Below are positions 2,706 through 8,845 of a stretch of 64,000 nt of DNA, in pieces. Each line of letters begins with the position of its first letter. Position 1 is the first letter of the stretch. The stretch covers positions 62,001 through 126,000 of the forward strand of contig CANRSX010000003.1 in the NCBI GenBank assembly GCA_947642555.1, in the 5' to 3' direction. Made by a program: the position numbers and the translations under genes. The notes under the pieces were generated by a model. The model made no database searches. It saw only the letters and a list, made by a program, of their open reading frames with translations, and was not told where the DNA came from. The stretch is from an uncultured Roseburia sp. GTDB taxonomy: Bacteria; Bacillota; Clostridia; Lachnospirales; Lachnospiraceae.

Positions 2706-3557
2706 TCAGTGCACGGCAAAAAAGGATACGCCGATGCTGCCCGGGCCGGTATGCGTACCGATGGTGCTGCCGATCGTGGTGACCGGAAGCGTTTCAACCT
2801 TTGATTTCCACAAATCTTCATGATCCGCTATGTATTTCTGCAGCAGAGAATCGTCGAGTCCCGTGTAGCCGAGGCAGTACGGCATGGAAAAATCAACGCC
2901 GCCGGATTTCGCGAGCTCTTCCTGGATCATGTTGTTGCCGTTTCTGGAACCGCGCGCTTTGCCTAAGATGGCGACCTCGCCGTCCACGATCGCGATCACC
3001 GGTTTGATGGAGAGCAGGTTTCCGGCAAGAGCGGCTGCGCCGGAGATGCGTCCGCCGCGTCTTAAGTACTCGAGCGTATTTAACAGGGCGATCACGCGCA
3101 CGTCTTTTTTGCGGCTGTCAAGCGCCTCCGCGATCTGGGCGGCTGTTTTTCCCTCCTGTAAGAGACGCAGCGCGTACCGGATCAGAATCTGCTCCCCGAT
3201 GCTGACATTTTCGCTGTCGACCAGCCAGATGCAGTCCTCATAGCCTTCCCTGGCGATGGAAGCGCTCTGAAAGCTGCCGGAGAGCCGGGAGGAGAGAACG
3301 ATTACGACCGCGGTATCGCCGGCCTCGCGAATCTTTTTATAAACGGCTTCGTATTCCAGGGGCGGGATCTGGCTCGTGGTCGGCAGACTGTCCGTCTCGA
3401 CCAGCTTCTCATAAAACTGTCTGTGGGAGAGCGTAATCCCGTCAAGAAATTCTTCCTCCCCGAAAATGGTCTTCAGCGGAAGATACATGCAGCCCAGTGC
3501 GTCCGCCTGCTCTTTTGTCAGGTCGGAGGCGGAATCAATCACAATTCTTACACTCAT
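2706..3557 (-). CDS. degV: DegV family (FakB-like) fatty-acid-binding protein
   Basis: 283-residue DegV-family protein. Characterised members (FakB) hold a fatty acid for the kinase FakA, feeding exogenous fatty acids into phospholipid synthesis. The N-terminus MSVRIVIDSASDLT is the typical DegV opening. The family stretches LPLKTIFGEEEFLDGITL, TSQIPPLEYEAVY and LEYLRRGGRISGAAALAG are present, and the C-terminus is of the IGTHTGPGSIGVSFF type. The start was set at the ATG with AGGAG about 6 nt upstream. It is transcribed alone from a near-consensus promoter (3717-3745), immediately followed by three TTTGA-N3-TCAAA boxes. A second DegV lies at 30715-31563. The family is certain; the bound lipid is unknown. 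Confidence 0.93.
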   Translation of the reverse strand: MSVRIVIDSASDLTKEQADALGCMYLPLKTIFGEEEFLDGITLSHRQFYEKLVETDSLPTTSQIPPLEYEAVYKKIREAGDTAVVIVLSSRLSGSFQSASIAREGYEDCIWLVDSENVSIGEQILIRYALRLLQEGKTAAQIAEALDSRKKDVRVIALLNTLEYLRRGGRISGAAALAGNLLSIKPVIAIVDGEVAILGKARGSRNGNNMIQEELAKSGGVDFSMPYCLGYTGLDDSLLQKYIADHEDLWKSKVETLPVTTIGSTIGTHTGPGSIGVSFFAVH

Positions 3558-3663
3558 AATTCTCCTCTTTTCCGCGCTGCGTCGGGTTCGCATCCCGGTG
3601 CGGCGCAATCTGTTGCCTGTAAGGACAGTTCGCGAAATGCGCTGTCCGTTTCTGAATTTATAG

Positions 3664-3708
3664 TTTCGATATCAAATAATTTGACTATCAAAATATTTGA
3701 CAATCAAA
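3664..3708. promoter_or_regulatory. Three 13-bp palindromes spaced exactly 16 bp (FabT-like operator array)
   Basis: Box 1 TTTCGATATCAAA (3664-3676, degenerate left half), box 2 TTTGACTATCAAA (3680-3692) and box 3 TTTGACAATCAAA (3696-3708) begin exactly 16 bp apart. Boxes 2 and 3 are perfect TTTGA-N3-TCAAA palindromes. They occupy the first about 45 transcribed bases of degV. The sequence resembles operators described for FabT-type MarR repressors of fatty-acid synthesis, which fits a FakB-like target. The identity of the regulator is an inference. Confidence 0.7.
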
Positions 3709-3716
3709 TTATGAAG

Positions 3717-3745
3717 ACTATACAGCATAATATCCGGTCTGTCAA
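3717..3745 (-). promoter_or_regulatory. Near-consensus sigma-A promoter for degV
   Basis: On the minus strand, -35 TTGACA (3740-3745), 17-bp spacer and -10 TATAGT (3717-3722). The expected transcription start is about 3710, directly in front of the triple operator, leaving a leader of about 150 nt before the degV start codon. Confidence 0.8.
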
Positions 3746-3837
3746 GAGGTATTCTTACAGGAAATGGAAGAAGCCGCGGCGGCGGTCACGAACTGCCGTT
3801 TTTTACATATGATAAAAGAAAAAACAGGCATGGAATT

Positions 3838-4884
3838 ATGCGTTGTCAGAATAGATTGATTTATACCGTAAAGGAGGGGGATACCCTTTATCGTCTTGCA
3901 AAAACATATCACACGACCGTCTCGGAGCTGATTCTCGGAAACCCGGAGGTAAACCCGTACAATCTTCAGGTCGGGATGAAATTAAAAATCTGTCAGGGAG
4001 AGGCATTTCTGGGGGAGGAGGAAACGCCGTCGTGGAACCGGGAGGGATATTTTAATAGGGAAGAGAATCCCGTCACCCCGAAAGCCATGAGCTGGACGGA
4101 GATCCCGTCCCGTGCGTCAGAGGATGCTGCTGTGCGCCAGCCCGAGGACGCTGTGCGCTGGCCCGAGGACGCTGTGCGCCAGCCAGAGGAGCGGCCATCG
4201 GCCCGTCCGTCGGTGCCGGAGCCGTCAGTCCCAGAGCAGCAGCCGTCTGGTCCGGAGCCGGAGCCATCGGCCCGTCCGTCGATCCCGGAATTGTCAGCCC
4301 GTCTGTCGGTGCCGGAGCCGTCGGTCCCGGAGCAGCAGCCGTCAGTTCCGGAGCCGGAGCCGGCAGCGATGGAACGCCTGGCGGAGCAGATGCTGACCGC
4401 ATGGCTTGACCATGTGTACTGGATGTACATTCTTCTGCTCTTTGAGGATCAGGACGCCGGCAGACGCCACACCGCCGAGGAGGTTTTACTGCGCACGGCG
4501 GATGAAATCGCCGATGCGTTTGCACTGTTTCTCCCGGTCGCCGCGATCCGGCAGCTCCGGAATCTGTTAAACGAGCATGTGGAGCTGGGCGGGGAGGTGA
4601 TCGATGCCCTGCGCGCCGGGCGGAAGGAAAATTATGACAGCTTAATCCGCGAGTGGTACGCAAACTTAAATAAGCTCGCCGTTCTGTTAGGAGAACAGGA
4701 GCCGTACACGGACAGCGTCCGGAAAATCAGAAATATGCTGCTGCAGCATCTGGATCTGACCAGGGAGGAGATCGAATATCAGATCCGGGGCGAATGCCAG
4801 AAAGGCGTGGAGGCATTCTGGAAGGCGCGTGAGCAGGCGATTGCGATGGCCGCTTATTTTGCAAAAGAGGCAGCCGGCCGATGA
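3838..4884 (+). CDS. LysM-domain protein with Pro-rich repeats and helical C-terminal domain
   Basis: 348 residues without a signal peptide. Residues about 8-53 form one LysM domain (YTVKEGDTLYRLAKTYHTT ... NLQVGMKLKI), which binds peptidoglycan or related glycans. Residues about 90-180 are an acidic Pro/Glu/Ser-rich linker built from two kinds of imperfect repeat. The last about 165 residues are predicted helical, with several amphipathic segments that I do not recognise. LysM proteins lacking a secretion signal in spore formers are often spore-coat proteins of the SafA kind; that is an inference here. The stop overlaps the next start by 4 bp (ATGA), so it is co-translated with the DUF4474 gene. 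The ribosome binding site at this ATG is weak. Confidence 0.8.
   Translation: MRCQNRLIYTVKEGDTLYRLAKTYHTTVSELILGNPEVNPYNLQVGMKLKICQGEAFLGEEETPSWNREGYFNREENPVTPKAMSWTEIPSRASEDAAVRQPEDAVRWPEDAVRQPEERPSARPSVPEPSVPEQQPSGPEPEPSARPSIPELSARLSVPEPSVPEQQPSVPEPEPAAMERLAEQMLTAWLDHVYWMYILLLFEDQDAGRRHTAEEVLLRTADEIADAFALFLPVAAIRQLRNLLNEHVELGGEVIDALRAGRKENYDSLIREWYANLNKLAVLLGEQEPYTDSVRKIRNMLLQHLDLTREEIEYQIRGECQKGVEAFWKAREQAIAMAAYFAKEAAGR
4120..4365 (+). repeat. Intragenic imperfect tandem repeats in the LysM gene
   Basis: The motif GAGGACGCTGTGCGC recurs with a 21-bp period (4144, 4165) plus a degenerate copy at 4120. Downstream, a 96-bp imperfect repeat brings back CGGTGCCGGAGCCGTC at 4211 and 4307. All periods are multiples of three, so copy-number change would alter only the length of the Pro-rich linker. 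Confidence 0.7.
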
Positions 4885-8143: not shown

Positions 8144-8845
8144 AAGCTATTTCATCCATTGGACGATACCCCTTTCTGAAATTTCAGATCTTATCTCCTT
8201 CCAATTCCGATTCTGCTTTCTTTTTGTTTCCGATTCAGCTCCTTTTGCAAACCCCGGATCCTACTTCTGTTCGGATATCAATCCTACTTTCGTTCGGATG
8301 TCAGAATTCTTTCACTCAGATGTCAGATTCCTTTTTTCTCTGCTGATCTCAGGACTGTTTCGTTCAGATGCCGGTTCCGTATCTTTTTATTATGTCTGAT
8401 CCTGCTGTCTTTCAGATATAAAATCTTACTTTTTCCCTTTCTGTACGGATCTTTTCATTCTGCGAATATCAAACCTGATCTCTTTTGAAGATGAAATTCT
8501 GTTTTTCTGTCTCTGGATGCTGATCTTTGTCTCCTTTGAAAGAAAATCTTTTTTTCGGAGTACAGATCTTATTTCTTATTATGATCTCTTCGCTTTTTCC
8601 TTCATCCCTTCTGTTCATTTCTTATGACAACTGGATTGTATCATATCTGAACGAATTCTGTCTGATAACTAATCCTGATTCCATCTGATGGAGTGTCATG
8701 TTTTCCTTCTGCGGCTGAAAGTAAAACGAAGGTTCTCACCTGTACACTGGACTGTACCTCCTTTACTTAGATTTTGTCTGGGTAATTCTTTACGTGTTCG
8801 GTGGTCTGTACCTCTCTTTCTTTTTATTTGTGTTTCGTTCTTTGT
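8144..8845 (-). ncRNA. Putative orphan non-coding transcript with degenerate repeats
   Basis: This 0.7-kb stretch lies between a consensus minus-strand promoter (8852-8880) and the terminator at 8103-8143, and holds no convincing gene. Read on the minus strand it is purine-rich. Between about 8160 and 8470 it consists of loosely repeated units of 21-27 nt resembling ATCTGACATCTGAACGAAAG followed by TAGG. The best copies lie near 8270-8345. Nearer the promoter a 12-nt direct repeat, GGWCTGTACCTC on the plus strand (8749-8760 and 8803-8814), appears twice. The only open frame with a ribosome-binding-like sequence is 26 codons (8699 to 8619). I do not recognise a known RNA family. Confidence 0.45.
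8160..8470. repeat. Degenerate about-24-bp direct repeats
   Basis: On the plus strand, variants of TTCGTTCGGATGTCAGA recur at irregular 21-27 bp steps: near 8267, 8290, 8313 and 8361, with weaker versions on either side. Copies differ at several positions and no constant spacer length exists, so this is neither CRISPR nor a clean satellite. Confidence 0.5.

Follow-up and report, generated by a model that had tools for sequence, protein, structure and literature searches.

A 16-bp-stepped array of predicted FabT operators at a degV promoter of an uncultured Roseburia sp. recurs at the fatty-acid synthesis genes

In Bacillus and Staphylococcus, lipid-responsive control of the fab genes belongs to the FapR regulon, whose protein fold and operator are other than those of FabT. 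The FabT regulon of the Lactobacillales (Streptococcus, Enterococcus, and Lactococcus) is governed by a MarR-family repressor with acyl-ACP as co-repressor, and in the available portions of two reports this co-repressor is specified as long-chain acyl-ACP and operator binding is described as weak (PMC9083066, PMC13046290). The accessible text of one of them also places the fakAB genes of E. faecalis outside the FabT regulon (PMC13046290). For S. pyogenes, the available part of a further study (PMC10138225) gives a FabT probe, ANTTTGATTATCAAATT, with the same motif as the degV1 boxes described below, together with a degV gene, fakB4 (M28_Spy1638), that has a FabT box between its transcription and translation starts. 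In a fabT mutant, fakB4 was derepressed along with fabT, and the other fakB genes were, as far as that text goes, not FabT-controlled (PMC10138225). For rumen butyrivibrios, the accessible text of another report states that it was not possible to verify FabT there (PMC4478896). Beyond this report, we found no account of FabT in Lachnospiraceae, nor any of tandem FabT operators, in a literature coverage that most subscription papers fall outside.

Here, we analyzed a 64-kb window (the whole stretch of DNA presented above, 64,000 nucleotides), in which the degV1 gene (2706..3557, minus strand) is preceded by a predicted sigma-70 type promoter (TTGACA-17-TATAGT; 3717..3745, minus strand). This promoter had been claimed in the original prediction, and in our promoter scan it scores 11 of 12. 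Likewise confirmed by a reading of the sequence are three 13-bp boxes starting at 3664, 3680, and 3696, two of them perfect TTTGA-N3-TCAAA palindromes and the third degenerate. On the minus strand, predicted operator box 1 (TTTGATTGTCAAA; 3696..3708) is exact and starts 8 bp past the -10 element, box 2 (TTTGATAGTCAAA; 3680..3692) is also exact and lies 16 bp from box 1, and predicted box 3 (TTTGATATCGAAA; 3664..3676), a further 16-bp step on, combines a perfect half with one that has two mismatches. Counted from the start of the -35 element, the half-sites alternate at an 8-bp step, with TTTGA at 37, 53, and 69 and TCAAA at 45 and 61. Since box 1 begins so close to the -10 element, all three boxes would fall inside the first ~46 transcribed bases, as reckoned from an estimated start point. 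Some 106 bases of leader then separate the array from the degV1 gene, and the predicted fold of this leader RNA includes GC-rich hairpins downstream of the boxes.

Single boxes with at most one mismatch are unremarkable in the window, four being found against a shuffled mean of 1.77, with 13 of 100 shuffles reaching four. Mononucleotide shuffling of the local sequence (96 bp, AT-rich), repeated 200,000 times, never yielded an exact 16-bp pair. Boxes 1 and 2 are the only exact palindromes in the 64 kb, and one-mismatch boxes are found elsewhere only at 8484 and 57864, so the second degV gene of the window (30715) is free of them, just as had been claimed. Regulation specific to one paralog, a further part of that claim, holds for those paralogs of the genome that were checked, as degV2 and three others (L335, L336, and L337) carry no box with up to one mismatch, a sixth DegV match having been left out of this comparison.

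The 283-residue degV1 product belongs to the DegV family (PF02645, 232 bits; TIGR00762, 235 bits) and is related to solved DegV and FakB proteins. Its score with the FakB1 equivalog model (NF038249) is 113 bits against a cut-off of 350, for which reason we call it FakB-like only. Putatively, the protein is a FakB that would hand fatty acids to the FakA kinase. The genome contains a match to TIGR03599, which we take to be the FakA family, at 637 bits and over the cut-off. Both fakA and plsX are present above their family cut-offs, and exogenous fatty acids could therefore become acyl-ACP. No exact box was found in the fakA stretch of this genome (L338).

Across the genome, a 4.99-Mb draft of 96.1% completeness, the 16-bp pair (20 fixed positions, of which up to three may mismatch) was found at just two promoters, and a reversed-pattern control gave none. 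A genome-wide search for such pairs at fatty-acid genes had been proposed, and its expectation was borne out, in that the sole other promoter (TTGACA-17-TATACT) is that of a fatty-acid gene run. Its array (C4:43297-43357) consists of boxes ahead of acpP at C4:43313, 43329, and, with one mismatch, 43345, and the 16-bp step extends to a fourth, degenerate box. A lack of the motif from every fatty-acid gene, which had been named as counting against the original prediction, is hence not what this genome presents. On the same strand, the run reads acpP-fabK-fabD-fabG-fabF-fabZ-accDA-fabH-marR (acpP identified by eye), an order that suggests co-transcription. Linked in this way to the fab genes is a FabT-type MarR repressor gene, the fabT-like marR (L016 1261-1710, minus strand), directly downstream of fabH; as the strand continues with an 87-aa frame, fabT is not certainly the last gene. 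The best solved relative of the MarR protein is 6jbx (89 bits versus 48 for the next), titled 'fatty acid biosynthesis transcriptional regulator'. Among NCBIfam models, FabT (NF050133; E 8.6e-36) matches the protein best, though its 123 bits stay below the equivalog cut-off of 200. The FabT palindrome is thus found at the fab genes as well as at the degV1 promoter.

Two other exact single palindromes occur in the genome, neither with a 16-bp partner. We set aside C35:46258 as a further target, for it sits within a reading frame, while C17:82113 falls right where a frame in its longest form opens and may be intergenic. A TPP riboswitch (RF00059; L016:9481-9599; 54.9 bits, gathering score 54.3) was matched at a Thia_YuaJ thiamine transporter gene that runs divergently from the fab genes.

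Within the genus, the DegV1 protein was searched in 60 genomes and the best 30 loci were examined. These comprise 26 orthologs with a readable leader (L160-L185, judged orthologous by their identity of 49-100%), one locus that runs off its contig (L186), and three paralogs at 34-37% identity (L187-L189). Exact boxes were found in the 260-bp leaders of 20 of the 26 orthologs (all of L160-L179 and none of L180-L185), with the similar leaders L169/L170 and L178/L179 each counted separately, and in none of the three paralog leaders; the chance of an exact box is 0.0005 per shuffled leader. The original prediction was to be doubted if the boxes were not conserved in orthologous degV leaders, and within the genus they clearly are. 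In each of the 20 boxed leaders, a TTGACA promoter has a box starting 8-12 bp past its -10, where the choice of promoter favored a box within 40 bp downstream and all those chosen score 10-11 of 12. Additional boxes are mixed. A second exact box at 16 bp is found in four of the 20 (L160, L171, L178, and L179), and ten have an extra box, in one case with two mismatches, that ends 5-6 bp upstream of the -35 and lies 55-59 bp from the first. Both arrangements are combined in L178 and L179, the -35 itself is covered by a box in L177, and seven leaders have one box only. From this constant register and these mixed extras, we conclude that the position of the degV1 box is conserved in the genus and that box number and arrangement vary.

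Regarding the surroundings of degV1, lrgAB stands divergent beside it, with a LysM gene beyond, in five loci (L161, L163, L164, L165, and L168), while in the window and in L162 the LysM gene adjoins degV1 and no lrgAB match was found. The upstream box of the bracketing pairs was considered as a possible part of divergent lrgAB, and this was rejected, as lrgAB is beside degV1 in only five of the ten such loci. Just upstream of LysM in the window (3778-3800, plus strand), there is a terminator-like hairpin with a T run, a kind of site of which chance alone would give an equal number over the region scanned.

Turning to the fab genes, we took leaders from the best 30 of the 53 genomes with a FabK match (those with FabK closest to the one here), which yielded 29 readable acpP leaders. 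All 29 contain a box with at most one mismatch, and in 25 it is exact. In 21 of the 29, the best box has a neighbor (up to two mismatches) at a distance of exactly 16 bp, whereas 200 rounds with shuffled surroundings gave 0.075 on average and never more than 1; at offsets 13-15 and 18-22 there are no neighbors, and at offset 17 there is one. Usually, the boxes stand at -1, +15, and +31, counted from where the -10 ends, and one starting exactly 15 bp after it is found in 22 of the 29 leaders. Exact boxes also precede a second gene, FabK-like, by ~80-125 bp as counted to its aligned part (G412:C1:622801, G445:C12:186877, G449:C1:512678, and G423:C37:113534), possibly a further FabT target in relatives.

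FabT itself (E <=1e-12) was found in 41 of the 60 genomes, including 19 of the 20 with a boxed degV1, G417 being the exception, versus two of the six with an unboxed one. Fisher's test gives p 0.0047 for this association, an optimistic value, since it ignores kinship and the four unboxed genomes without FabT are 82-92% complete. Looked at from the other side, exact boxes occur in 19 of the 21 FabT-bearing genomes of the genus with a readable degV1 leader. In the two others (G431 and G439), FabT is present and the fab promoters are boxed, yet degV1 is without a box.

Farther afield, exact box pairs with a gap of 0-20 were found in 23 of 397 genomes of the family (this one included), with none in the remaining 374 and with a reversed control positive in one genome; 17 of the 28 places listed in them have the 16-bp step. 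In a collection with one genome per species, at least 118 stretches have box pairs. Among the matches listed there, the step is 16 in 56 of 136 successive pairs. Of the 48 step-16 stretches listed, 47 stand just upstream of a match to FabT, FabK, AcpP, or DegV; among the 70 with another step, 18 do. 'Upstream' here means that, going downstream, no more than 300 bp separate the pair from the aligned region of a tblastn match scoring 55 bits or higher, and some of these FabK matches are only 28-30% identical, that is, FabK-like. Pairs before a DegV match account for three of the 48 step-16 stretches listed (L066, L084, and L110). The organisms among the matches listed include Enterococcus, Vagococcus, Clostridium, Lachnospiraceae (in records with a FabK 72-79% identical to the one here), and Acholeplasmataceae, and because exact 16-bp pairs precede fabT matches in Enterococcus and Clostridium, the spacing is not private to the genus.

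This is otherwise for the boxes at degV1. Outside the genus, 40 genomes have a DegV1 match (E <=1e-60), and among the best 29 leaders read (L282 partly readable) an exact box is found in one (L280) and a one-mismatch box in another (L299). FabT was not found in 22 of these 29 genomes, and in the seven that bear it the degV1 relative has no exact box, G008 having a one-mismatch box at -221. In 12 genomes picked for their box pairs, one of the 30 best-matching DegV-family leaders has an exact box, there as a 16-bp pair (L306), and in Parablautia muri a fab pair is present (L045) while the degV1 relative is without a box (L305). The proposed comparison of degV leaders across Lachnospiraceae therefore came out divided, with conservation in the genus (20 of 26 exact) and next to none beyond it (1 of 29). 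As degV1 relatives outside the genus are mostly box-free, FabT control of degV1 would seem to be mainly a trait of this genus.

We also read 20 further box places in nine relatives, four of which are within genes. Others precede a patatin-like gene, sugar transferase genes, DUF4190/TM2 small proteins, and DUF6061 genes. In three relatives (L260, L262, and L263, at about position 1500), exact boxes are 105-124 bp ahead of similar genes, a bacterial sugar transferase by Pfam in L263 and judged by eye in L260 and L262. Another common box context lies 234-236 bp before similar small genes (L256, L258, L269, L270, and L272), that of L256 being DUF6061 by Pfam, and occurs twice in one genome.

Taken together, the boxed degV1 leaders of the genus, their co-occurrence with FabT, the 16-bp neighbors at fab promoters, and the pairs in public genomes uphold the reading of the degV1 boxes as operators of a FabT-type repressor, which the original prediction had put forward and which the array at the fab genes and the FabT-like MarR gene further support. 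Given that degV1 and the fab genes have the same array, we consider it very probable that the boxes are operators of the genome's own FabT-type MarR protein and that degV1 is in the FabT regulon with the fab genes. That another MarR-family protein, or an unrelated repressor, reads the degV1 boxes in place of the fab-linked FabT seems improbable. The FabT-like protein does score under its equivalog cut-off, and two genomes have a boxed degV1 in which FabT was not found (G417, 68% complete, and G048, 93% complete). Such a repressor would, however, have to account for boxes that track FabT in the genus, for identical boxes at the very fab genes that fabT follows, and for a motif equal to the published FabT probe.

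Two other explanations take the boxes away from a repressor of degV1 transcription, and to both we assign very little weight. The array might fold in the 5' leader RNA and so regulate the degV1 mRNA through its translation or termination. In favor of this, none of 200 dinucleotide shuffles folds as stably as the leader (window 3555-3710, minus strand; z -4.2), and the alternating half-sites are able to pair as one hairpin. Any inverted-repeat array gives such pairing, though, and the tandem that makes the hairpin is absent in 16 of the 20 boxed leaders. Moreover, ten of the 20 have a box upstream of the -35, outside the transcript of that promoter, and neither the window nor L160 contains an Rfam family at gathering score, all of which makes control by the RNA highly unlikely. 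It is scarcely credible that the divergent LysM gene (3838-4884, plus strand) is the one for which the boxes are there, their place behind the degV promoter being only incidental. By eye, a plus-strand TTGACA (3697)-16-TATACA (3719) does run through the box at 3696-3708, but it is absent from the promoter scan. The boxes stay with degV1 in relatives while the neighbor changes, LysM being detectable in the flanks of seven of the 30 loci (this one included) and lrgAB standing between it and degV1 in five of those seven, and their place relative to the degV -10 is constant in all 20 boxed leaders.

As for how control by FabT may work, binding of the genome's own FabT to these putative operators is suggested by the motif they share, and by analogy with the described systems its co-repressor may be long-chain acyl-ACP. 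FabT dimers would occupy the boxes that cover the degV1 transcription start and block the gene, boxes over a start point pointing to repression. The same 16-bp array would let FabT block the fab genes, so that degV1 would be switched on and off together with de novo fatty-acid synthesis. Because half-sites alternate every 8 bp, neighboring dimers would be offset by one and a half turns and sit on opposite sides of the helix. A tandem array would then load dimers on both faces and so raise occupancy, and several boxes may in this way strengthen weak FabT binding. A wider proposal, one whose chances we judge to be even, is that FabT repressors across Bacillota read a lattice of half-sites alternating at an 8-bp step, with dimers on both faces of the DNA, in which the 16-bp spacing suffices to mark targets in a bare sequence and offsets weak single-site binding, and that in this genus a degV/FakB gene has been captured, its product being made only during the cell's own fatty-acid synthesis.

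On sequence evidence, a degV gene of Lachnospiraceae is here placed in the FabT regulon. The 16-bp rule may offer a simple, specific signature for FabT targets, and the tandem sites make the strengthening of a weak repressor testable. A FakB-like gene wired with synthesis would be repressed under an ample supply of exogenous fatty acids, and this raises the question of the DegV role, perhaps other than uptake, as suggested for FakB4.

Set against the Lactobacillales FabT regulon, as far as the available parts of the sources describe it, the system here has in common the operator motif, the fab genes as main target, a repressor gene by fab, and a box at the transcription start. In contrast to the Lactobacillales, where fabT is first, the fabT-like gene here comes after fabH, ending the run that acpP begins, and its predicted operators form 16-bp-stepped arrays of two or three, unlike those described there. 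S. pyogenes FakB4 likewise represents a degV/fakB gene with a FabT box, but in the accessible text one box is reported, as opposed to three at degV1, and the bacterial class differs (PMC10138225). FabT control of a degV gene is thus already known from S. pyogenes fakB4, and the same kind of control probably operates here in another class, with an operator array.
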